A stretch of 64,000 nt of DNA. Origin: Pseudomonadota bacterium. GTDB lineage: Bacteria; Pseudomonadota; Alphaproteobacteria; Acetobacterales; Acetobacteraceae. The notes under the pieces are model-generated. The model was not told the origin of the DNA. It saw only the letters and a program-made list of their open reading frames with translations, and ran no database searches. A program made the translations under genes and the position numbers. The stretch is taken from assembly GCA_021851785.1 (NCBI GenBank), contig JAJZBV010000001.1, positions 206,325-270,324 of the forward strand, in the 5' to 3' direction. Below, one piece after another: positions 16,515 to 63,123 of the stretch (its first letter is position 1; every line of letters begins with the position of its first letter).

Positions 16515-17324
16515 ATGGACGGCGGAGCCGATGCCCGGCGCATCACCCTGTATCAGGAGGCCGATTTCGCCGGCCTGCGCGCGGCTGGGCGGCTTGCCGC
16601 CGAAACCCTCGACATGATCACCCCGCATGTCCGCCCGGGGATCAGCACCGGCGAACTCGACACAATCTGCCATGAATTCATCCTCGCCCATGGCGCGGTG
16701 CCGGCGCCGCTCAATTACCGCGGCTTTCCGAAGTCGATCTGCACCTCGATCAACCACGTCGTCTGCCACGGCATTCCCGGCGAGCGCCGCCTCGACGAGG
16801 GTGACATCGTCAATATCGATGTCACCGTCATCCTCGACGGGTGGCATGGCGATACCAGCCGCATGTATGTCGCAGGCGAGCCCTCGACCCGCGCCCGGAT
16901 GCTGATCGATGCCACCCACGAGGCGCTGCGGCACGGCATCGCGGCGGTCAAGCCCGGGGCGACGCTCGGCGATGTCGGCTTTGCCATCCAAAGCTTCGTC
17001 GAGGGCAAGCGTTTCAGCGTGGTGCGCGATTTCTGTGGTCACGGCATCGGCCGGCGTTTCCACGAGCCGCCCAATATCCTCCATTTCGGCCGCCGCGGCG
17101 AGGGGATCACGCTTCGCCCCGGCATGGTGTTCACCATCGAGCCGATGGTCAATGCCGGCCGCCCGGAAGTGAAAATCCTCGATGACGGCTGGACCGCCGT
17201 CACCCGCGATCGCAGCTTGTCCGCGCAGTTCGAGCACATGCTCGGCGTCACCGAGGGAGGGTGCGAGATTTTTACCCTGTCCCCCGCCGGTTACGAGAAA
17301 CCGCCTTACGCCCTCCCCGGCTGA
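16515..17324 (+). CDS. map: Type I methionine aminopeptidase
   Basis: PLNYRGFPKSICTSINHVVCHGIP; GHGIGRRFHEPPNI. Confidence 0.96.
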   Translation: MDGGADARRITLYQEADFAGLRAAGRLAAETLDMITPHVRPGISTGELDTICHEFILAHGAVPAPLNYRGFPKSICTSINHVVCHGIPGERRLDEGDIVNIDVTVILDGWHGDTSRMYVAGEPSTRARMLIDATHEALRHGIAAVKPGATLGDVGFAIQSFVEGKRFSVVRDFCGHGIGRRFHEPPNILHFGRRGEGITLRPGMVFTIEPMVNAGRPEVKILDDGWTAVTRDRSLSAQFEHMLGVTEGGCEIFTLSPAGYEKPPYALPG

Positions 17325-18058
17325 GCGGCCGCTTGCCCGCGCTCCCGCCTCCCGATCTGTTCCAAGGCGCGCCGCCGCCGCCCAAGCCTGCTGGCGCCGA
17401 GGGGCATCGGGCGCGGATGCGCGCGCGTCTCCTCGCCGCCGGGCCGGAAGCGCTCGCCGATCACGAATTGCTGGAAATGGTGCTGTTCACCGCCCTGCCC
17501 CGGCGCGACACCAAGGCGATCGCCAAGGCCCTGCTGGCGCGTTTCGGAAGCTTCGCCGGCGCCATCGCCGCCCCCCTCCCCGATCTCCGCGCGATCGAGG
17601 GCCTCGGCGAGGCCGGCGCCGCGGCGCTGAAAACCGTCCAGGCGGCGGCGCTTCGCCTCGCCCGCACCGAGATTTTGGATCGCCCGCTGCTCGATAACTG
17701 GGAGCGGCTGATCGGCTATCTCAACGCCGCGCTCGCGCGCGAGCGGGTGGAGCAGTTCCGGGTGCTGTTCCTCGATGCCCGCAACCATCTGCTCGCCGAC
17801 GAGGTGCAGGCGCGCGGCACCGTCAACCACACCCCGGTCTATCCCCGCGAAGTGGTGAAGCGGGCGCTGGAACTGCACGCCGCGGCGATCATCCTGGTCC
17901 ACAACCACCCGAGCGGCGATCCGACGCCGTCGCGCGAGGACATCACGATGACCGCGGAGACCCGCAAGGCCGCCGACGCGCTCGCGATCGTGCTGCACGA
18001 CCATATCATCATCGGCAATGGCCGCTGGACCAGCTTGCGCGAAAAGAAGCTATTGTAA
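17261..18058 (+). CDS. radC: RadC family JAB-domain protein (start uncertain)
   Basis: EVVKRALELHAAAIILVHNHPSGDPTPSREDI; true start is probably downstream of the map stop. Confidence 0.9.
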   Translation: MRDFYPVPRRLRETALRPPRLSGRLPALPPPDLFQGAPPPPKPAGAEGHRARMRARLLAAGPEALADHELLEMVLFTALPRRDTKAIAKALLARFGSFAGAIAAPLPDLRAIEGLGEAGAAALKTVQAAALRLARTEILDRPLLDNWERLIGYLNAALARERVEQFRVLFLDARNHLLADEVQARGTVNHTPVYPREVVKRALELHAAAIILVHNHPSGDPTPSREDITMTAETRKAADALAIVLHDHIIIGNGRWTSLREKKLL

Positions 18059-19306: not shown

Positions 19307-21049
19307 CTACTTCGAAAGGCTATAGACGACCAGCGCGCCGTCATCGCGCGGCATGCTTTTATAGACGCCGCCGAAGGTCGGGGCGTAGTCATCGCTCGCC
19401 ATGCCGCCGAAGCCGGCGACGACGGCGACATATTGCTTGCCATGCGCGGCGTAGCTGATGATGCCGCCCTGATGGCCGGTGCCATCGCCGTGGTTCCACA
19501 ATTCCTTGCCGGTCGTCGCGTCATAGGCGTGAACGGTGCCGCGGGTATCGGGGACGAAAACGAGATCGCCGCCGGTGGAGAGGACGCTGGCGAGCGGCGG
19601 CTCGGGGAAGCGAACTTCCCATTTGGTCTGCCCGGTGATCGGATCGCGGGCATCGAGATGGCCGTAGATCGGGCCGCTGGGCGGCGGCGCGATGGTGAAA
19701 TTGGCGCCGATATTGAGCTGCACCTGCGGCTCGGTCACTGGCGTCGTCTTCACGATATCGAGATGCATGCACCATTCATTGCCGATCTTGTAGTAGAGCC
19801 CGGTCTTCGGGTCATAGGAGCCCGAATTCCAGCTCACCCCGCCGGAAATATGCGGGCAGAGCAATTCGGCCTGCTTGCCGGCGGTCATGTCACGCCGGCC
19901 GATCAGTTCGCCGGTCTTGGGATCGATCGATTTCACGTAGTTGATGTTGTGCGAGATCGGCCAGACGTTTTTCACGTTGGCGCTGCGGTCATAGACGAAA
20001 ATATAGCCGCCCTTGTTGGGATGGACGACGTATTTCTGACCGCCGCGGTCGATCATCAGGAATTCGCCGACGGCGCTGTCGAAATCCCACACGTCGTGGG
20101 GATTTTCCTGGTGGAAGAATTTCAGCTTGCCGGTCGCGGCGTCGAGGCCGAGCACCGAGCTGATATAGAGATTGGTGCCAGGACGGGCGCCGGTGTGCAT
20201 CCAATCGGGGCCGGACCAGTCATAGAGCGGCGCGCCGTTGGAGGTGCCCCACCAGATGGTGTTGGTTTCGGCGTCATAGCCACCCGGCATCCAGCCGCCG
20301 CCGCCGCCGACCCGCCAGGAATCATTGCCCCAGGTCTTCTTGGTCTCCTCGGTCGGGGCGATGGTATTGAAATCCCAGCGCGGCTTGCCGGTTGTCGCGT
20401 CGACCGCGTAGATCTTGCCGCGCACCGGCCACTCGCCGCCTTGCGAGCCGATCACCACCTCGCCATTGACATAGAGCGGCGCGCCGGTGAAGCCGATGGT
20501 GAGCTTCTGGCTGTCGATCAGCTTGGTATCCCAAACCGGCTTGCCGGTTTTCATGTCGAGGGCGATCAGCCGGCCATCGACGGTGCCGACGAACACCTTG
20601 CCCTCGCCCAGCGCGACGCCGCGGTTATAGGGCGAATGGGTCTGGCGGGCGACCAGCGCGTCGTCGAGTTCGGGGAAATAGGACCACAGAACCTGCCCGC
20701 TCGCCCCGTCGATCGCGAACACCCGGCTATAGGAGCCCGAGTAGTAAAGAATGCCGTCGGCGACCAGCGGCATGGATTGCAGGCCGCGTGTCGAATGGCC
20801 GGGAATGTGGATCCAGGCGACCGAAAGATCCTTGACGTTCTTGGCATTGATCTGGGTCAACCCGCTATAGTGATAGGAGTTGTAGGATCCGTGGTAGGTG
20901 AGCCAGTCATTGGGGTTATTGGCTTCGATACGCTTGCTGTCGATCGTCTGCGCCATCGCGGTCGAGGCGGCCAATGCCGTCCCCATCGCGACGGCGAGCG
21001 AGAGCGCGGTCTTGCGCTGTTTTCCGTTCATCGAGACTTCCTCCCTCAT
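19307..21049 (-). CDS. PQQ-dependent methanol/ethanol-family dehydrogenase with D-x-D motif
   Basis: Beta-propeller tryptophan docking repeats; NPHDVWDFDSAVGEF; signal peptide. Confidence 0.92.
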   Translation of the reverse strand: MREEVSMNGKQRKTALSLAVAMGTALAASTAMAQTIDSKRIEANNPNDWLTYHGSYNSYHYSGLTQINAKNVKDLSVAWIHIPGHSTRGLQSMPLVADGILYYSGSYSRVFAIDGASGQVLWSYFPELDDALVARQTHSPYNRGVALGEGKVFVGTVDGRLIALDMKTGKPVWDTKLIDSQKLTIGFTGAPLYVNGEVVIGSQGGEWPVRGKIYAVDATTGKPRWDFNTIAPTEETKKTWGNDSWRVGGGGGWMPGGYDAETNTIWWGTSNGAPLYDWSGPDWMHTGARPGTNLYISSVLGLDAATGKLKFFHQENPHDVWDFDSAVGEFLMIDRGGQKYVVHPNKGGYIFVYDRSANVKNVWPISHNINYVKSIDPKTGELIGRRDMTAGKQAELLCPHISGGVSWNSGSYDPKTGLYYKIGNEWCMHLDIVKTTPVTEPQVQLNIGANFTIAPPPSGPIYGHLDARDPITGQTKWEVRFPEPPLASVLSTGGDLVFVPDTRGTVHAYDATTGKELWNHGDGTGHQGGIISYAAHGKQYVAVVAGFGGMASDDYAPTFGGVYKSMPRDDGALVVYSLSK

Positions 21050-21241: not shown

Positions 21242-21877
21242 TCACGGGGGAGAGATTAAAGCAGCTCCGTCCGTGGTTTCGCCGAGCCAGTCCTGCCGCA
21301 GATGCTGGCGGAGGAAGCCGAGAAGAGGCAATAGCGGCAGGCCGAGGACGCTGAAATAATCGCCCTCGACGGCCTCGAACAATTGCGCCCCCGGTCCTTC
21401 GAGACGATAGGCGCCGACCGAGGACAATACCCGCGTGCCTTCCACGGCGAGATAGGCCGCGATCGCCGCCTCCGGGAGCGGGCGCATACGAAGGCGCGGC
21501 CGCGCGACGTGGCGCCACAGCACGGCGCCGCCGCGCCAGCAGACGACCGCGCTCACCAGCTCATGCCACCCCCCGGCGAGGCGGCGCAACTGCGCGCCGG
21601 CGGCGGCGAGATCCTCGGGTTTGTCGAACCATTCCTGGTTCTGGACCAGGATCTGATCGGCGCCGATCACCAGCGCCTCGGGTCTCGTTCGTGCCGCCCG
21701 CCGCACCTTCATCTCGGCCAGCAGCAGCGCGGTCTCGGCGGCATCGCCGTTCTCGGCCCGCGCCGCCGCCTTGATCGCCGCCTCGTCGATCGCCGCCGGC
21801 ACCGCGATGACGGAAAGCCCGGCGCCCGCAAGCAAGGCAAGACGGATCGCCGAGCCACTGGCGAGAACCAGCGTCAC
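21242..21877 (-). CDS. maf: Maf-family nucleotide pyrophosphatase
   Basis: [54 protein letters not shown]. Confidence 0.94.
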
Positions 21878-22758
21878 TTCGCGCCGCCGGTTGCGGCTTC
21901 CTCGCCGCTCTCGGCGGGTTTACGCGGCCGGCGGGCGTGCCATTCCTCCATGCGCTGCAACACCGCCGCCGCCGTCTCCTCGATCGAACGGCGGGTGACA
22001 TCGATCACCGGCCAGCCTTGCCGGGCGCAGAGCCGCCGCGCCCACAGCAGCTCCGTCTTCACCGCCCCCTCGTCGACATATTCGGTCGCATCATGCCGGG
22101 CCAGACCCGGGGCGCCGATCAGACGCAGGCGATGCCGCCTGATCTCGATCAGGGCCTGCGCCTCGATGGTCAGCCCGATGATCGGGCAGGACAAATCCTT
22201 CAGCACCGGCGGCACCGGCAGATTGGGGACGAGCGGCACGTTCGCCGCCTTGACGCCGCGATTGGCGAGATAGAAGGCGGTCGGCGTCTTCGAGCTGCGC
22301 GACACACCGACGAGACAGACATCCGCCTCGACGATGCCGGCCTCGGCCTGGCCGTCGTCATGGGCGAGAACATAATGCATGGCATCGATGCGGCGAAAAT
22401 AATCGGCGTCCAGAACATATTGCCGCCCCGGCCGCGCCGTCGCCACCTCGCCGATCTGCTCCTGCAGCACGGCGATCACCGGATCGAGAACATTGACCAC
22501 GCTGACCCCCAGGCGCTCGCAAAACACCTCCAGTTCATGGCGGAGCGCGCGATCGACCAGCGTCGACAGGATCGGCCCCGGCTCGGACTCGATCCCCTCC
22601 AAGACGCGGTGCAATTGCAGACGCGAGCGGATCAGCGACCAGCGATGATAGACGATCGCGACATGCTCGAACTGGGCGACCGTCGCCCGGGCGACGGAGT
22701 TGAGGGTCTCGCCGGTGGCGTCCGAGACGAGATGGAGGTTCATGCGCTGGTTGGTCAT
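21874..22758 (-). CDS. ppsR: Pyruvate,water dikinase / PPDK regulatory protein (DUF299)
   Basis: [46 protein letters not shown]. Confidence 0.93.
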
Positions 22759-22764
22759 GGGAGC

Positions 22765-23067
22765 GAGGATAGCGGGGATAAGCGGGAAAAACATCCGCCT
22801 CGGTTGGCGTGCCTGTGAACAGCGGGGATAAATGCACACGGCCAGGGACGCTGTGCAAACCCGCCGTGAATTTTTTATCCCGCTCCGGATGGATGAAAAA
22901 TAATATTATTTTTCAACGAATTAAAAATCCGCTCTGCTGTGGACAAGACCGCGAGGAAGAGCGGCTCTGGTGGGTACCCCGTCATCCACAGGGTTCATCT
23001 AACCCCCATATTTTCTTTTATCTCTCTTCTCTTTAAGGGAAGAGCGAAGTGATGAGAGGATGGCAGT
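22765..23067. other. Putative chromosomal replication origin (oriC)
   Basis: ppsR(RP001)-hemE intergenic; AT-rich core; 22-bp palindrome; DnaA-box-like sites 22938-22946 and 22982-22990; divergent flanking genes. Confidence 0.65.
22894..22915. repeat. Perfect 22-bp AT palindrome in candidate oriC
   Basis: TGAAAAATAATATTATTTTTCA. Confidence 0.95.
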
Positions 23068-24102
23068 GTGGCGAAGAAGCTGGTCTCGGTCCTGCGTGGG
23101 ACACCGTCCTGGCCGCCGCCGCTCTGGCTGATGCGTCAGGCCGGACGGTACCTTCCGGAATATCGCGCCCTTCGTGCCCGCGCCGGTGACTTCATCACGC
23201 TCTGCACGACGCCGGATCTCGCCGTCGAGGCGACCCTCCAGCCGGTGCGGCGGTTCGGCATGGATGGCGCCATCCTGTTCAGCGACATCCTGATCCTGCC
23301 CTGGGCGCTCGGCTATGGGCTTCGTTTTGCCGAGGGCGAGGGGCCGGTGCTGCCGCGCTTGCAGCCCGAGGACATCGCCCGCCTCGATCTCGACCGGCTT
23401 GAGCCCGCGCTCGCGCCGGTGCAGGAGGCGATCGCGCGCCTTCGCGTCGGGCTGGATGGCGATGCGGCGCTGATCGGTTTCGCCGGGGCGCCGTTCACCG
23501 TCGCCTGTTACATGATCGAGGGCGGCGGGTCGAAGGATCACGCGCGAACGCGCGCCATGGCTTATCGTCAGCCGCGGGATTTCGAGCATTTGCTCGCGGT
23601 GCTGACCGAGGCGACGATCACGAGCTTGAGCCTCCAGATCGCCGCCGGCGCGGAAGCGGTGATGCTGTTCGATAGCTGGGCCGGTGTTCTCTCGCCGAGC
23701 CTGTTCCGCCGGTTCGTGGCCAACCCGGCGGCGCGGATCAAAGCCGCCCTTGGCGAGCGTTTTCCGGAGATTCCGGTGATCGGGTTTCCGCGTCTCGCCG
23801 GCGGGCTGCTCGGGGTCTATGCCGAAATCAGCGGTGTCGACGCGGTCGGGATGGATACCGCGACCGATCCCGCGCTCACCGCCGCCCTGGTCGCGGCGCC
23901 GGTCGCGCTGCAAGGCAATCTCGACCCGGTGGCGCTGCTCGCCGGAGGGGCTGCGATGACGGCGGAGGTCGCGCGTATCCTCGGCGCGCTGCGCGGGCGC
24001 GCCCATGTCTTCAATCTCGGCCATGGTATCCTGCCGGAAACGCCGCCGGCCCATGTCGCCGAACTCATCGCCCTGGTGCGTGGCGCCGGCGAGGCCGCTT
24101 GA
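23068..24102 (+). CDS. hemE: Uroporphyrinogen decarboxylase
   Basis: PPPLWLMRQAGRYLPEYRALRA; GTG start. Confidence 0.96.
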   Translation: MAKKLVSVLRGTPSWPPPLWLMRQAGRYLPEYRALRARAGDFITLCTTPDLAVEATLQPVRRFGMDGAILFSDILILPWALGYGLRFAEGEGPVLPRLQPEDIARLDLDRLEPALAPVQEAIARLRVGLDGDAALIGFAGAPFTVACYMIEGGGSKDHARTRAMAYRQPRDFEHLLAVLTEATITSLSLQIAAGAEAVMLFDSWAGVLSPSLFRRFVANPAARIKAALGERFPEIPVIGFPRLAGGLLGVYAEISGVDAVGMDTATDPALTAALVAAPVALQGNLDPVALLAGGAAMTAEVARILGALRGRAHVFNLGHGILPETPPAHVAELIALVRGAGEAA

Positions 24103-30236: not shown

Positions 30237-31034
30237 ATGGCGCCGGAAATGATCGAGGTCGAAACCACGGGGCGGACGGGCCTCATCCGCCTCAACCGCC
30301 CGCAGGCGCTGAATGCGCTGTGCGATCAGTTGATGGACGAACTCGGGGCGCAATTGCTGGCGTTCGATGCCGACCCATTGATCGCGGCGATCATTCTCAC
30401 CGGCTCGGAAAAAGCCTTTGCCGCCGGCGCCGACATCAAGGAGATGCTGCCGCGCCGCTATCCGGACGTGCTGCGCGAGGATTTCATCGCCCCGTGGGAG
30501 ATCGTCACCACGGTGACAAAGCCGGTGATCGCCGCCGTCGCCGGCTTCGCGCTCGGCGGCGGGTGTGAACTCGCGATGATGTGCGATATCATTCTCGCCG
30601 CCGAGAGCGCGAAATTCGGCCAGCCGGAGATCAATCTCGGGGTCATCCCCGGCGCCGGCGGGACACAGCGCCTGACGCGCGCGATCGGCAAGGCCAAAGC
30701 GATGGAGATGATCCTGACCGGGCGGATGATGGACGCCCATGAGGCCGAGCGCGCCAATCTCGTCGCCCGCGTGGTTCCCGCCGCCGCGCTGATGGGCGAG
30801 GCGCTGAAGCTCGCCGAGAAAATGGCGACGCTCTCGCCGGTTTCGCTCGCGGTCGCGAAACAGGCGGTCAACCGGGCGTTCGAGACCACGCTCGGCGAGG
30901 GGGTGCGGGTGGAGCGCTCGCTGTTCCTGCCGCTGTTCGGCACGGAGGATCAGCGCGAGGGCATGGCGGCCTTCGCCGAGAAGAGAAAGCCGCGGTTTTC
31001 CGGCTGGGGCGGCGGAGACCCTGGCGCCGCTTGA
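30237..31034 (+). CDS. Enoyl-CoA hydratase
   Basis: [33 protein letters not shown]; start internal to ORF 29655..31034. Confidence 0.94.
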
Positions 31035-31139
31035 CAGGCCCGCCGGCGCTTTCTAGAAGGCGCTTCCTGGCTCGAAGGGGCATGCGCCCGTTCGGGGGTG
31101 TCCGGGTTAGTGTTCGCTTATCGATGGTGATGAGGGCCC

Positions 31140-31409
31140 ATGGCCAATACCGCTTCGGCGCGCAAGCGCATCCGCCAGACGGCACGCCGCACCGAGCGTA
31201 ATCGCGCCCGGAAATCGCGCGTGCGGACCTTCATCGGCAAGGTCGAGGCGGCGATCGCTGGCGGCAACAAGGATGAGGCCGCGACCGCGCTCCGTCTCGC
31301 CGAGCCGGAGATGCAGCGCGCCGCCGGCAAGGGCGTGCTGCCGAAGAACACCGCCTCGCGCAAGATCTCGCGGCTGGCCGCGCGCATCAAGGCGCTTTCG
31401 CTTTCGTGA
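31140..31409 (+). CDS. rpsT: 30S ribosomal protein S20
   Basis: [32 protein letters not shown]. Confidence 0.97.
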
Positions 31410-31479
31410 AAATTTCGCGCCCGCGGTCTTGACGACAGCGGGTCGCGCGGCTGAAAATGACAAATCCGTGTCAGTGTGA

Positions 31480-31518
31480 CGGCACGGAGAAGATTTTCCG
31501 CGACCAATTTCCGTGCCG
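31480..31518. repeat. 9-bp perfect inverted repeat in rpsT-dnaA intergenic region
   Basis: CGGCACGGA (31480-31488) / TCCGTGCCG (31510-31518). Confidence 0.8.
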
Positions 31519-31743
31519 CATACACTCGCCGTAAAAGTAAAAACACTTGCTCAGCAAGGGCGGGTAAGTCATTTTTTTGCTGTTTGATAGTCATTCCGCT
31601 CCATTTGCCCTAATTTTTTTGCGGCCACTTTCTTGGTTGCTTCTGTCGAACCTTCGGTCTAGTGTCCGCCCTTCTCAATTCTGTCTATGGACGACGGTTT
31701 GTTGGCGCACCCCGCCAGGGTTGCGGCGCGAGAGACGTAATAG

Positions 31744-33360
31744 GTGGTTTTGGGCTGTCTCCACGGTCCCCGAGCGAATGACGGGGCTGTGCTGGGGGGG
31801 GCGTTTGAGGTGGGCGAAGCAGTGTCAGGCAATAGCGGCATGGATCGGGAGCGCAACCTTGCCGCGGCTTTTGCCGGCGGTTTCGAAGCGCTGGAGGGCG
31901 CGGACAAGGCCGCGGCAACCGAGGCGCCGGTTGGCGCCGGGGTCGGTGCCGAGCTGGCCGGGCAGTGGAGCCGGGTGCGCGGCCGGCTCCAGGCCGATGT
32001 CGGCGAGGTCGAATACCGTTCCTGGCTCCGCCAGATGGTGCTCGCCGGGTGTGACGGCGACGAGGTCACCATTCTCCTGCCGACGCGCTTTCTCCGTGAC
32101 TGGGTGCGCCGCCATTATGGCGAGCGTCTGGTGCTGTTGTGGCAGACGGAGAACCCGGCGGTGCGCCGGGTCGATATGCGCGCCGGCACGCTGGGCGCCC
32201 GCGCGGCGCCGGCGGGCGGTGGTTTTGCCGAAAGCCTGGCGAGCCCGCCGCGCTCTCCCGCGCCGCCGGCGGCCAAATCGGTCGCCCCGGCCACTTCCCC
32301 GGCCGGCGCCGCGCCGGAACGTCCGGCGACCGATACCTCCGGCCTCGACAAGCGCTTCGATTTCGACAATTTCGTCGTCGGCAAGCCCAATGAATTCGCC
32401 TATGCCTGTGCCCGGCGGGTGGCCGAGCATCCGGCGATGCCGGGCTTCAACCCGCTTTTTCTTTATGGCGGGGTCGGCCTCGGCAAAACCCATCTGATGC
32501 ACGCCATCGCCTGGGATCTGATCGGCCGCGGCGGCGGGCGGGTTTCGGTCGCTTATATGTCGGCGGAAAAATTCATGTATCGCTTCATCGCCGCGATCCG
32601 CAGCCAGGCGACGATGGAGTTCAAGGAGCAGTTGCGCGGCGCCGACGTGCTGATGATCGACGATCTCCAGTTCCTGATCGGCAAGGACAACACCCAGGAA
32701 GAATTCTTCCACACCTTCAACGCCCTGGTCGATGCCGGCAAGCAGATCGTGGTGTCGGCCGACAAATCCCCCTCCGACCTCTCGGGGTTGGAGGATCGTC
32801 TGCGCACCAGGCTCGGCTGCGGCATGGTGGCCGACCTCCATGCCACCACCTTCGAGCTGCGGCTTTCCATTCTGGAGGCGAAGGCGAGCCGCGCCGGGGT
32901 TGCGGTTCCGGCCAAGGTCTTGGATTTCCTCGCCCATAAGATCACCACCAATGTCCGGGAACTGGAGGGCGCGCTCAACCGGCTGATCGCCCACGCCAAT
33001 CTGTTCGGCCGGCCGATCACCCTCGAGACCACCCAGGAAGTCCTGCACGATATCCTCAAGGCGCATGACCGCCGCATCACCATCGAGGAGATCCAGCGCA
33101 AGGTTTCCGAGCATTGGAACATCCGCCTGACCGACATGTCCTCGGCGCGGCGGGCCCGCAATGTCGCCCGTCCGCGCCAGGTCGCGATGTATTTGGCAAA
33201 GCAGCTCACCAGCCGCAGCCTGCCCGAGATCGGCCGTAAATTCGGCAATCGCGATCACACCACGGTGATGCATGCGGTGGCGCGGGTGAGCGAGCTGATG
33301 GAACGCGACGCCGCTTTCGCCGAGGATGTCGAATTGCTGCGCCGGATGCTGGAGTCCTAA
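31744..33360 (+). CDS. dnaA: Chromosomal replication initiator DnaA (start uncertain; GTG at 31822 is an alternative)
   Basis: FLYGGVGLGKTHLMHAIA; DDLQFL; ARQVAMYLAKQLTSRSLPEIGRKFGNRDHTTVMHA. Confidence 0.96.
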   Translation: MVLGCLHGPRANDGAVLGGAFEVGEAVSGNSGMDRERNLAAAFAGGFEALEGADKAAATEAPVGAGVGAELAGQWSRVRGRLQADVGEVEYRSWLRQMVLAGCDGDEVTILLPTRFLRDWVRRHYGERLVLLWQTENPAVRRVDMRAGTLGARAAPAGGGFAESLASPPRSPAPPAAKSVAPATSPAGAAPERPATDTSGLDKRFDFDNFVVGKPNEFAYACARRVAEHPAMPGFNPLFLYGGVGLGKTHLMHAIAWDLIGRGGGRVSVAYMSAEKFMYRFIAAIRSQATMEFKEQLRGADVLMIDDLQFLIGKDNTQEEFFHTFNALVDAGKQIVVSADKSPSDLSGLEDRLRTRLGCGMVADLHATTFELRLSILEAKASRAGVAVPAKVLDFLAHKITTNVRELEGALNRLIAHANLFGRPITLETTQEVLHDILKAHDRRITIEEIQRKVSEHWNIRLTDMSSARRARNVARPRQVAMYLAKQLTSRSLPEIGRKFGNRDHTTVMHAVARVSELMERDAAFAEDVELLRRMLES

Positions 33361-33381
33361 ACTTTCTTCCTTGATGCGGGT

Positions 33382-33422
33382 CCGGGGGCGCTGCCCCCGG
33401 CGGGTCCAGGGCAGCGCCCTGG
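33382..33422. repeat. GC-rich double hairpin (family C) between convergent dnaA and PhaC-like gene
   Basis: CCGGGGGC-GCT-GCCCCCGG and CCAGGGC-AGC-GCCCTGG. Confidence 0.85.
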
Positions 33423-33429
33423 CCTTTTT

Positions 33430-34650
33430 TTAGTCTTTCCTGCCACACACCCGCCGCAGCCAGGCGAGGAGTGGCCGCCAGAGCACGGTTTCCGCGCTGG
33501 TGCCGGCGATCATGCCGATATGGCCGGCTTGCGGCTCGATCAGGGTGGCTTCGGGGATGAGGGTCGCGAGCGGGCGGGCGCTGGCCGGTGGCACCAGACG
33601 GTCGCGGGCGGGCGCGGCGACGAGGCAGGGCAGGCGGAGCGCGCCCGGGTCGACGGGAAGCCCGGCGACGAGCCAGGCGCCTTGCTGCGGCGTGTTGTCC
33701 CCATACCAGCCGGCGAGGGTTTCGCGCGCCACCGGTTCGGCGAGCGGCACGCCGTCGTTCAGCCAGTCCTCGAGGGCGACGAAGCGGCGGGCGCGCGGGG
33801 ATAGCGGGTCGAGGGCCGCGAAAGCGCGGTATTTCGCGCCGACGCCGAAGGGATCGACGAGGGCGAACAGGGTTTGCAGCCAGTCGATCGGCAGGCTGTG
33901 GCCGAGGGCGAAGGCCGGCTCCATGAGCGGCAGCAGGCGGGCGAGGGCGCCGGCGCGGGCGGGATCGTCGGCGTGGAAATCCCACGGCGTTGCGAGCAGA
34001 GCGAGGGCGCGCAAGCGATCCGGCTGGCGGAGGGCCGCGGCGAGGGCGAGCAGGCCGCCCATGCAGTAGCCGGCGAGGATGGGCTTGTCGGCGAGCGTTC
34101 CGATCGCGCGTTCCAGCCGCCCGGCGACGTAGTCGGTGAGGGTGAAGCGCCGCTCGCGCGCGCCGGGCCAGCCCCAATCGAGCAGCAGCGGGTGGAAGCC
34201 GGCGGCGGCGAGGAAGCGGAGCAGCGAGGCGCCCTCGTCGAGATCGAGGATATGGCCGCGATTGACGAGGCTCGGGACGAAGAGGATGGGCGGTCCCTCG
34301 CCGCCGTAATCGAGGAGGCGGGTTTCGCCTTCGCGCCAGATCGCCGGCGGGTCGGGGAGGGTGCGGCGCCAGGGATGGCGGCGGTAGGCGGCGATGCCGG
34401 CGATGAGGGCGCGATCCTCGGCGAGGGTGGCGGCGAGGACGGCGCGGGCAAAGGCGTCAGGAGCGCCGCTTGCGGAGGCGAGGCGGGCGAGTTCGGGATT
34501 GCGGCGCGGGTTCCAGCCGGGCCAGGCGCCGCTCGAGGGCGACAAGCCGGCGATGGAGACGCTCGATTTCAGCATCGCGAGGGTCAGGTGGAGCAGCAGC
34601 GGCCGCGGCCCGCGGCGGCTGAGCGGTGCCGGCGCCGTGTTCTGGCTCAT
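33430..34650 (-). CDS. PhaC-like alpha/beta hydrolase (5' end uncertain)
   Basis: PILFVPSLVNRGHILDL; LAGYCMGGLLALAAAL lipase-like box with Cys; C-terminal QAGHIGMIAG. Confidence 0.82.
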   Translation of the reverse strand: MSQNTAPAPLSRRGPRPLLLHLTLAMLKSSVSIAGLSPSSGAWPGWNPRRNPELARLASASGAPDAFARAVLAATLAEDRALIAGIAAYRRHPWRRTLPDPPAIWREGETRLLDYGGEGPPILFVPSLVNRGHILDLDEGASLLRFLAAAGFHPLLLDWGWPGARERRFTLTDYVAGRLERAIGTLADKPILAGYCMGGLLALAAALRQPDRLRALALLATPWDFHADDPARAGALARLLPLMEPAFALGHSLPIDWLQTLFALVDPFGVGAKYRAFAALDPLSPRARRFVALEDWLNDGVPLAEPVARETLAGWYGDNTPQQGAWLVAGLPVDPGALRLPCLVAAPARDRLVPPASARPLATLIPEATLIEPQAGHIGMIAGTSAETVLWRPLLAWLRRVCGRKD

Positions 34651-60153: not shown

Positions 60154-61233
60154 TCAGGCCGCTTGTTTGCCAGGGAAGACGATGGCGATGAACCGGGTAA
60201 TTCCGCGCCGCCATGCGTTTTTCCGCCGCTCCGTCACGGAGGCGACAACGAACACCAGGGCCAGGGTTCCGCCCAGAATGACGGCCCGCGTGGCGGCGGC
60301 GGTGGGCGGCCAGGGAACGACGGTGGTGAGGAACTGGCTGATCGGCAAATGGAGAAGGTAAAGCGTGAAGGTGGCGCCGGCGAGCCAGCGGATCGGCCGC
60401 GCGAAGGGAGCAAGCAGTGGACCGAGCCAATCGGCGGCGGCATGGAACCCGATCAGGTTGATGGCGAAGAGAAAGGCCACGAGGAAATCCTGTGGCAATT
60501 CCTCCCGCCGGAGGGCGGCGAAAAGTGGCGTCATCCAGCGCCCATTATCCTGCGCCCAGAGTTCATAGCCGATCCATAGCGCCAGCGAGCCGGCCCAGAG
60601 CGCCAAGCCGCCGGCGCAGGTGATCTTTCGGCGCGCGCAGACATTGTATGCCGCGACGCCGAACAGCCAAAGCGGCAGCATCGAGACGATTTTGGGACCG
60701 ACGAATATCAGCAACCCGCCGAGGGCCAGCCAACGCCATTTGCCGGCGTGGAAAAGAAACACACCGAAAATGACATAGTACCAAACCTCGTAGCCCAGCG
60801 ACCAATAGGGAAGATCGGAGCCGGGATCCGCATGCAAGAACCAGATTTGATTGAGGAAGGTAAGGCAGAGAAGATAGGAGAGGGGTTGGCCGGTGCTTTC
60901 ATATCCCCAGCGCGCGCTGTAATAATCGGGGTGGATATGGTGGCCGATACTGTCGAGGACAAAGGTCGCGGCCAAGGCCGGCAGCGCCACCGAATAGATA
61001 CGGGCGGCGCGGCTTATCCCATAGGCGTGGGCGGTGGTTTCCCGCTGATCGGTCGCGTAGCGGATCACGAAGCCGGAAAGGACGAAGAACACCGTCACGG
61101 CGTGAGACATGTAAGGGCCGAATTGCCAGAACAGCCCGCCGGTGAACCGCTGGCCGGACACATGCCCGCCGAAAACGACGAGCGCCGCGATGAAACGCGC
61201 CAAGTCGAGATAGAGCGAGGTTGCGCGATTCAT
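60154..61233 (-). CDS. Acyltransferase 3 (OafA/YrhL) family protein
   Basis: LDLARFIAALVVFGGH; FFVLSGFVIRY; multiple TM. Confidence 0.92.
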   Translation of the reverse strand: MNRATSLYLDLARFIAALVVFGGHVSGQRFTGGLFWQFGPYMSHAVTVFFVLSGFVIRYATDQRETTAHAYGISRAARIYSVALPALAATFVLDSIGHHIHPDYYSARWGYESTGQPLSYLLCLTFLNQIWFLHADPGSDLPYWSLGYEVWYYVIFGVFLFHAGKWRWLALGGLLIFVGPKIVSMLPLWLFGVAAYNVCARRKITCAGGLALWAGSLALWIGYELWAQDNGRWMTPLFAALRREELPQDFLVAFLFAINLIGFHAAADWLGPLLAPFARPIRWLAGATFTLYLLHLPISQFLTTVVPWPPTAAATRAVILGGTLALVFVVASVTERRKNAWRRGITRFIAIVFPGKQAA

Positions 61234-61338
61234 CGCGGCACTTTCATACGAGAGCTGATGGTAAAAACGCGAACCAATCTCGCGAGGTCTTAATATCATT
61301 TTTTTGCGCATTGCGCGGCGGAATTTGCATGACGCGCG

Positions 61339-62004
61339 TTACCTACGCCGAAGGCGGGCGCGAAAACCGAATTGGAGATGCCCGATATCACGCGCGCCTC
61401 CCAATGATATTGCCCGAGAAATGACGTAAAAAACCAAATAGGCAAGTTTCCACTTCGACAGGCCAAACTCGATTTTGCCATTGATACCTTGAAATTTTTC
61501 AATTTCAAATCCCGATTGTTTCAGAGCGCGGCGCAGACTTTTCTCGGTAAAAAAACGGAAATGTGTGCGATCCAACGTGCCCCACTCCGTATATTCCCAG
61601 TCTTTTACGATCAGGAGATGGAAAATATTTTTATAATGTCTGACATTAGGAATCGAGCCGACCAAAGCCGCGTCTTCGGTCATATATTCCCGTATTTCTT
61701 TTAGAAATTTCTCATGATCCTCCATATGCTCTATCACATCATTACATATAACAAGATCAAAATAATTTTTTGGTAAATCAGCTTTTACTATATCAAAAGT
61801 CCCTATCAAAATCTTATCGAAAACATTTTTTGCAATGTTTGCGGCCTTGCTATCAGGCTCAATCCCCCATTTTTCTCCAGAGCATTTTATATTTTTAGAG
61901 AATGACCCTTCTCCACAACCAATCTCCAATATCATAGAAATTTCTTGCGGAAGAAATTGAATAATTTCTTTGCGAGATTGATTTCTGTAGCTTTCTTTGG
62001 GCAT
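61339..62004 (-). CDS. Class I SAM-dependent methyltransferase
   Basis: ILEIGCGEGSFSKN; FDLVICNDVIEHMEDHEKFLKEIREYM. Confidence 0.92.
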   Translation of the reverse strand: MPKESYRNQSRKEIIQFLPQEISMILEIGCGEGSFSKNIKCSGEKWGIEPDSKAANIAKNVFDKILIGTFDIVKADLPKNYFDLVICNDVIEHMEDHEKFLKEIREYMTEDAALVGSIPNVRHYKNIFHLLIVKDWEYTEWGTLDRTHFRFFTEKSLRRALKQSGFEIEKFQGINGKIEFGLSKWKLAYLVFYVISRAISLGGARDIGHLQFGFRARLRRR

Positions 62005-62022
62005 GAATTCCTCGCTGTTTAG

Positions 62023-63123
62023 CTAGAAGTTTTTAATAGTTTCTCGTATTTTTATTAAATAACTATCGCCAGATTTTAAATCTGGCTCCAGGTGATTACC
62101 TTCCGCCCATTCGTTCCATGATTTTAACATAATGATCTTTCTGTCGTCTGGATTTTTTTGAACGGACTCGATGGCGTCTTCTAGCGCCATTTTGAATAAT
62201 TCAGGTGATGAATTTTTAAGAACGAAGCCGTTTTTGCCGGATCTTGGTGTATTATCCCACGCATGAGTGACGCAAGGATAATATTTTTCGGCTATGTCGT
62301 TATATTTTTTTTGTGCGCGAAGCCATTTTTCATACGATTCAATGGTGGGCAGGCCACGCGCCCGCTCAAATTTGTTTTTTAGCCACTTTAATGGTTCTCG
62401 TGGTGAACCCCATGGCCGCAATGCCCAATTAGGTGGTGGTGAGATGGCGTCAAATCCATGACCAAGAGGATTCCATCGGCCGATACCTGACACAGAAACA
62501 AAATGAATGCCTGTCAAACCGGCTTTGATGGCCATATTCTGCCAAAGCTCTATTGTTCTCCGAGGTTCTGGAAGTTTACTCGCTTCATATATAAAAAAAA
62601 TAGGTTTATTATCAACTTTGATATATCTCTCATCAAGAAATGCTGGGAGCAGTGTCGCAAAATGGCGTTGGTGATCGGAGATGCCCGGGTAAGTTTGTTC
62701 GATTAAAATTCTATTGGGCGCTCCATGCCAAACTCCGGTCCAGGTTTGATTGGCCCAACACAAACAAAAGGGGAAATCTGGTTGTTTTGACTGAAGAACC
62801 TCATTAAAGGGTCTTTCAAGAACGCGTTTTCCTGCAAACCAATAATGATAATAACAAAATCCATAAACCCCGTATTCGCGAGCCATTTCCGCCTGAGCGG
62901 CCCGTGTTTCTGGAACGCGTAAGTCATAAAACCCGAGATCAGCGGGCACGTGTGGCTGATAATGGCCACGAAACATGGGTTTTGCTTTTGCCGTATTCGT
63001 CCATTCGGTGAACCCCTTCCCCCACCAAGCATCATTTTCTGGAATTGGATGAAACTGAGGCAAATAATATGCAATCGCCTTTATTTCTGGGGACATGGGG
63101 GATGCTCTCAAATTTTGATTCAA
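62023..63123 (-). CDS. Glycoside hydrolase family 99-like / WbsX-type protein
   Basis: KAIAYYLPQFHPIPENDAWWGKGFTEWTNTAKAKPMFRGHYQPHVPADLGFYDLR. Confidence 0.93.
   Translation of the reverse strand: MNQNLRASPMSPEIKAIAYYLPQFHPIPENDAWWGKGFTEWTNTAKAKPMFRGHYQPHVPADLGFYDLRVPETRAAQAEMAREYGVYGFCYYHYWFAGKRVLERPFNEVLQSKQPDFPFCLCWANQTWTGVWHGAPNRILIEQTYPGISDHQRHFATLLPAFLDERYIKVDNKPIFFIYEASKLPEPRRTIELWQNMAIKAGLTGIHFVSVSGIGRWNPLGHGFDAISPPPNWALRPWGSPREPLKWLKNKFERARGLPTIESYEKWLRAQKKYNDIAEKYYPCVTHAWDNTPRSGKNGFVLKNSSPELFKMALEDAIESVQKNPDDRKIIMLKSWNEWAEGNHLEPDLKSGDSYLIKIRETIKNF

Follow-up and report, generated by a model that had tools for sequence, protein, structure and literature searches.

The replication origin of Caulobacter crescentus, Cori, occupies an AT-rich gap of 300-400 bp flanked by hemE and CC0001 (COG1806), and it carries a few moderate DnaA boxes alongside a weak TCCCC-type class (cf. 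G-boxes and W-boxes; PMC1914354, PMC4285127, PMC4468827). The Rickettsia prowazekii origin is flanked by hemE and RP001 (PMC1914354). Likewise, oriC of Sphingopyxis and Sphingomonadaceae has been called beside hemE on the basis of DnaA-box conservation and a presumed unwinding element, and the authors argued for moving a DoriC entry to hemE (PMC4741004).

Here, we describe a locus with these flanking genes in a 64-kb stretch of DNA, the window (G000:C35:206325-270324), from a 3.16-Mb assembly of 66 contigs (G000) whose nearest relatives are MAGs and whose nearest named relatives are Acetobacteraceae. The host is an acid-loving member of the acetic-acid-bacteria family. A sequence-only reading had placed a probable chromosomal origin between an RP001-type gene (ppsR) and hemE, and Pfam searches bore out the identities of both genes. 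Module conservation, strand polarity, and the positions of dif and parS all support that placement. Judged from these sequence comparisons, the 309-bp ppsR-hemE gap is very probably the chromosome replication origin, of the known hemE-linked type. The features of the locus are as follows.

21874-22758, minus strand: ppsR (COG1806/DUF299, Kinase-PPPase; RP001/CC0001 homologue; Pfam PF03618, 2.5e-83), left flank of the candidate origin
22759-23067: candidate oriC, the ppsR-hemE intergenic region (309 bp, 50% GC)
22764-22781, minus strand: weak head-to-tail DnaA boxes CTATCCTCG (22764-22772) and TTATCCCCG (22773-22781), a block conserved in the family
22823-22831, minus strand: third weak DnaA box TTATCCCCG, 50 bp from the second weak box
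22894-22915: 22-bp AT-only palindrome with 11-bp arms, species-specific, overlapping a loose CtrA-like TTWW-N7-TTWW at 22910-22924
22938-22946, minus strand: DnaA box A, TTGTCCACA; cTGTGGAnAA is kept across the family
22972-22980: 9-bp block GGGTACCCC, one base before box B, single copy in the window, conserved in the family
22982-22990, plus strand: DnaA box B, TCATCCACA, followed by a conserved GG; conserved as ATCCACAGG
23010-23037: AT-rich pyrimidine tract ATTTTCTTTTATCTCTCTTCTCTTTAAG, about 20-50 bp past box B and before hemE; candidate duplex-unwinding element
23068-24102, plus strand: hemE (URO-D; Pfam PF01208, 1.6e-111), right flank of the candidate origin
31744-33360, plus strand: dnaA (Pfam, 1.3e-62), 8.7 kb from the candidate origin

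The compositional and motif claims of the earlier reading held when recomputed. The gap is AT-rich (50% GC versus about 67% around it), being among the 3.6% of 303-bp stretches with the lowest GC on the 270-kb contig; the palindrome, TGAAAAATAATATTATTTTTCA, is perfect; and boxes A and B are present in opposite orientation, each with one mismatch, with no perfect DnaA box in the gap. More specifically, these two boxes form the sole pair less than 300 bp apart among 13 one-mismatch DnaA boxes in about 264 kb of the contig. Since roughly 0.2 such pairs would be expected by chance (a rough estimate), the pair is only suggestive in a single genome. The repeat AGCGGGGATAA occurs at 22771 and 22821, spaced by 50 bp, has no other match in the window even when one mismatch is allowed, and reads as TTATCCCCG from the opposite strand.

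The genes also diverge from the gap as had been described, with the left side on the minus strand down to 18135 and the right side mostly on the plus strand. Beyond the leftward run lies a radC-like plus-strand gene (17261-18058), and the right side includes two minus-strand genes, coaBC-like and ubiE-like, from 27329 to about 29300 (all three names taken from translations). Plasmid matches were absent, and no tRNA or Rfam matches were found inside the 64-kb window. Just left of the gap is a PQQ-dependent dehydrogenase-like gene (19307-21049; Pfam PQQ, 1.4e-66), accompanied by genes for a cytochrome c and a substrate-binding protein. At the far end of the window, positions 61001-63000 have 43-46% GC inside a 67% GC genome and include methyltransferase-like (61339-62004) and WbsX-like (62023-63123) genes between acyltransferase-like genes (names from translations); this region is probably a horizontally acquired polysaccharide cluster.

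Conservation of the gap in Acetobacteraceae

Divergent ppsR and hemE are neighbors in about 60 relatives, covering most of Acetobacteraceae, with a gap usually of 285-340 bp. The aligned gaps share GGATAgCGGGGATAA beside ppsR, a second CGGGGATAA, cTGTGGAnAA, and GGGTACCCCGtnATCCACAGG. An inverted TGTGGA/TCCACA pair at fixed spacing (45-49 bp between the TGTGGA and TCCACA starts; boxes A and B are about 44 bp apart) was present in 32 of the 69 distinct relatives with ppsR in the locus and was absent from all 100 shuffled sets. On the ppsR side, the positions of the weak boxes are occupied in relatives by closer DnaA boxes, such as TTATCCACA, TTATCCCCA, and TTATCCTCA, arranged head to tail at 9-bp intervals, a further box following 50 bp away; 83% of relatives, versus 3% of shuffled sequences, had a DnaA box with ≤2 mismatches in the first 30 bp. 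GGATA repeats are spaced by 9 bp in relatives, and the 50-bp GGATA spacing was seen 17 times. On the hemE side, the pyrimidine tract is nearly identical in five of six genus members, and the lowest family-wide GC (0.29-0.30) lies at +30 to +50 from box B, away from the palindrome.

With 0-1 mismatches allowed, the core motif TACCCCNTNATCCACAGG has no more than one copy in any genome, and every copy sits a short way upstream of hemE; in G000, the copy in the gap is the only one at this threshold. The motif lies about 60-200 bp 5' of hemE in G000, G001, G003, G005, G018, G046, G065, G111, G145, and G205, and it stays at hemE in G018, G046, and G065, where no ppsR was found. Four further genomes (G064, G206, G207, and G267) gave no core module match, being too diverged. 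A stricter two-box pattern, CTGTGGA-N36-48-ATCCACAGG, was confined to this genus among nine genomes.

Chromosome-wide markers of the probable origin

The earlier reading had suggested a GC-skew check. On the contig itself, cumulative skew reaches its minimum at 19 kb, the low near the gap being a local one only, and AIMS show no separation (111:102 left, 27:21 right). With 66 contigs and weak skew, G000 cannot settle the matter by skew, so that for this genome the claim depends on the module, on parS, and on synteny with G001. The check was run in closed relatives, where it came out for hemE. Four chromosomes have hemE and dnaA separated by 0.6-1.3 Mb along the circle, and in these the switch in KOPS/AIMS polarity and in GC skew falls at hemE rather than at dnaA. 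For the four chromosomes combined, Fisher p values for a switch at hemE were 3e-6 (GGGNAGGG), 4e-6 (AIMS set), and 4e-5 (GC skew), versus 0.36, 0.14, and 0.37, respectively, for a switch at dnaA. The oriented octamers were the set reported for A. pasteurianus (PMC3751514) or GGGNAGGG, and polarity was sampled in stretches every 170-220 kb. Since this gives a resolution of about 100-200 kb, the assignment of the origin to the exact gap rests on the module. In the closed same-genus chromosome G001, the skew boundary lies in the region that holds hemE and dnaA (half-circle test, p < 0.0005 for hemE). In G046, strong GC skew switches at hemE (1.72-1.88 Mb), and octamer polarity has its peak 0.4-0.5 Mb away from that gene, at 2.23-2.39 Mb.

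The dif-like sequence ATAANNTATATTATG lies opposite hemE, at 0.466-0.498 of the chromosome, in 9 of 11 closed chromosomes; the outliers are G046 (arc 0.38) and G232 (arc 0.20), the latter perhaps a rearranged chromosome or assembly. In contrast, the distance between dnaA and dif is random in closed chromosomes (mean 0.25, p 0.49). A first dif pattern gave many chance matches in AT-richer genomes, and the refined pattern was derived from the element common to G000, G001, G111, and G221. A candidate genus dif site, CGTATAATTTATATTATGGAAA, is single copy at G000:C45:197447-197465 and G001:C1:2053252; the G000 site is thus on contig C45 and not on the window contig, C35.

All 15 closed chromosomes carry parS-like TGTTTCACGTGAAACA sites at a distance of 8-102 kb from hemE and of up to 1.7 Mb from dnaA. 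The window's own contig carries a parS-like pair at C35:176206 and 176252 (176206-176267), 53 kb left of the gap and outside the window; its 46-bp spacing recurs in equal-spacing pairs in G001, G003, and G005. Polarity, dif, and parS are three markers independent of the gap sequence, and in closed relatives the polarity switch, the dif antipode, and the parS cluster coincide at hemE with the single-copy module.

Alternative readings and the position of dnaA

An origin at dnaA (about 31.4-33.4 kb of the window), as in many bacteria, would leave the gap merely a divergent promoter. This reading draws on the oriC annotations near dnaA in A. pasteurianus 386B (PMC3751514) and A. cerevisiae KSO5 (PMC13209655), and skew cannot separate the two sites in this genus, because dnaA and hemE lie close together, just 8.7 kb apart here and about 35 kb apart in G001. 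Elsewhere the distance is 55 kb, 0.6 Mb, 0.9 Mb, and more, which makes the two hypotheses separable, and in relatives with distant dnaA it is hemE that polarity, dif, and parS follow; in G046, dnaA lies 17 kb from a dif-like site. Moreover, no DnaA box with ≤1 mismatch was found around dnaA (30800-34000). We therefore regard an origin at dnaA as highly improbable. Slightly less remote, and still very unlikely, is that the gap is a ppsR/hemE divergent promoter whose DnaA boxes serve transcriptional control, with the true origin elsewhere within about 100 kb. DnaA can act as a transcription factor, the flanking genes do diverge, and the polarity and parS data resolve to 10-200 kb only. Against this, the module is single copy and remains with hemE where ppsR is lost or moved, no sigma-70-like promoter was found in a scan limited to that type, and in Caulobacter the origin has been defined by experiment as the hemE/COG1806 gap (PMC1914354).

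A further reading makes the palindrome at 22894-22915 the element that matters most, acting as a cruciform or in the manner of a terminator, and its perfect 11-bp arms and folding better than shuffles (z -2.2) speak for this. However, its arms are AT-rich, it is absent at the aligned position in same-genus relatives, intact in none of those sampled, and without a family consensus. We rejected it as a core element, since it is unconserved even within the genus, and its being the main element is the least credible of these readings. The anatomy given by the earlier reading stands as regards the motifs it listed, and the conserved AT-rich stretch is 23010-23037 rather than the palindrome. The reading we prefer remains that of a replication origin in the ppsR-hemE gap.

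The position of dnaA merits description in its own right. In the ppsR-less G046, G018, G065, and G050, as well as in G205, dnaA lies 0.37-0.50 of the chromosome from hemE (the G050 distance was worked out by hand), and its distance to a dif-like site is within 0.5% of the chromosome in G046 and 5.5% in G205; dnaA thus seems to be close to the terminus in these relatives. We take these five as acetic-acid bacteria because the named ppsR-less hemE loci are largely from Acetobacter, Bombella, and kin. For A. cerevisiae KSO5, the published oriC coincides with dnaA, lies at the GC-skew maximum, and is separated by only 51 kb from the dif site called by the same authors (PMC13209655). Such a location suits a terminus more than an origin, and, from the published positions, this oriC probably sits at the terminus. 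With dnaA scattered in the family and near the terminus in some acetic-acid bacteria, dnaA-based oriC calls there are doubtful, and such annotations are likely wrong in relatives with dnaA near the terminus.

Proposed initiation and comparison with described origins

Partly from the anatomy of the gap, we infer how DnaA binding, assembly order, unwinding, and initiation might proceed in this species. DnaA would occupy the inverted near-consensus boxes first (22938-22946 and 22982-22990) and would then bind cooperatively to the weak TTATCCCCG-type boxes that lie head to tail near ppsR. The resulting complex would open the pyrimidine tract after box B (23010-23037), where the helicase would be loaded, and two forks would diverge, one passing left through ppsR and the other right through hemE in the direction of dnaA.

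Within the family, the origin keeps to hemE and dnaA wanders as far as the opposite chromosome end. Hence dnaA, the usual gene for locating origins, is unsafe as an origin marker in Acetobacteraceae; the module offers a sequence-level marker for the whole family, MAGs included, without the need for closed genomes. Tentatively, and with the odds somewhat against it, Acetobacteraceae origins may form a subtype of their own, having a fixed single-copy module in which GGGTACCCC adjoins the key DnaA box and may be bound by a novel regulator replacing CtrA/IHF, the module having stayed at hemE while dnaA moved, in acetic-acid bacteria next to the terminus. If so, dnaA beside the terminus would have the lowest gene dose, and dnaA-based oriC annotations in acetic-acid bacteria would mark the terminus.

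Compared with Caulobacter Cori, the gap has no strict CtrA site (TTAA-N7-TTAA), the loose match at 22910-22924 being the single one, and no IHF consensus site (WATCANNNNTTR-type), so that it lacks the full CtrA sites and IHF site of a CtrA/IHF-controlled Cori. Most other alphaproteobacterial origins reportedly show no CtrA sites (PMC4468827), and the lack of strict ones here is thus no argument against an origin. Its moderate boxes are TTGTCCACA and TCATCCACA rather than TGATCCACA, and it has the conserved GGGTACCCC block. BUS-type origins combine a DnaA box, a GC spacer, and DnaA-trios, with at least three NAN trios on the unwound strand ≤16 bp from the box (PMC8287927); here, as checked by eye only, box B runs into GGG and the conserved AT-rich tract follows 20-47 bp on, without a clear conserved trio run. 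The R. prowazekii origin is likened to this locus by its flanking genes; Rickettsia gaps, unlike this one, are over 80% AT. The Sphingopyxis/Sphingomonadaceae origins resemble it in their hemE position, in having conserved DnaA boxes, and in a putative unwinding element, but are from another family and are predictions only. The weak ppsR-side boxes resemble the TCCCCA W-boxes of Caulobacter (PMC4285127); together with GGGTACCCC and the pyrimidine tract, they are targets for studying the control of an alphaproteobacterial origin without evident CtrA/IHF sites. By its location between hemE and the COG1806 gene, an AT content above the genome average, a DnaA-box cluster beyond chance, and, in closed relatives, a shift in skew and polarity at the site with dif opposite and parS near, the gap, as a candidate origin, belongs to the hemE-linked alphaproteobacterial oriC class, as in Caulobacter and Rickettsia.
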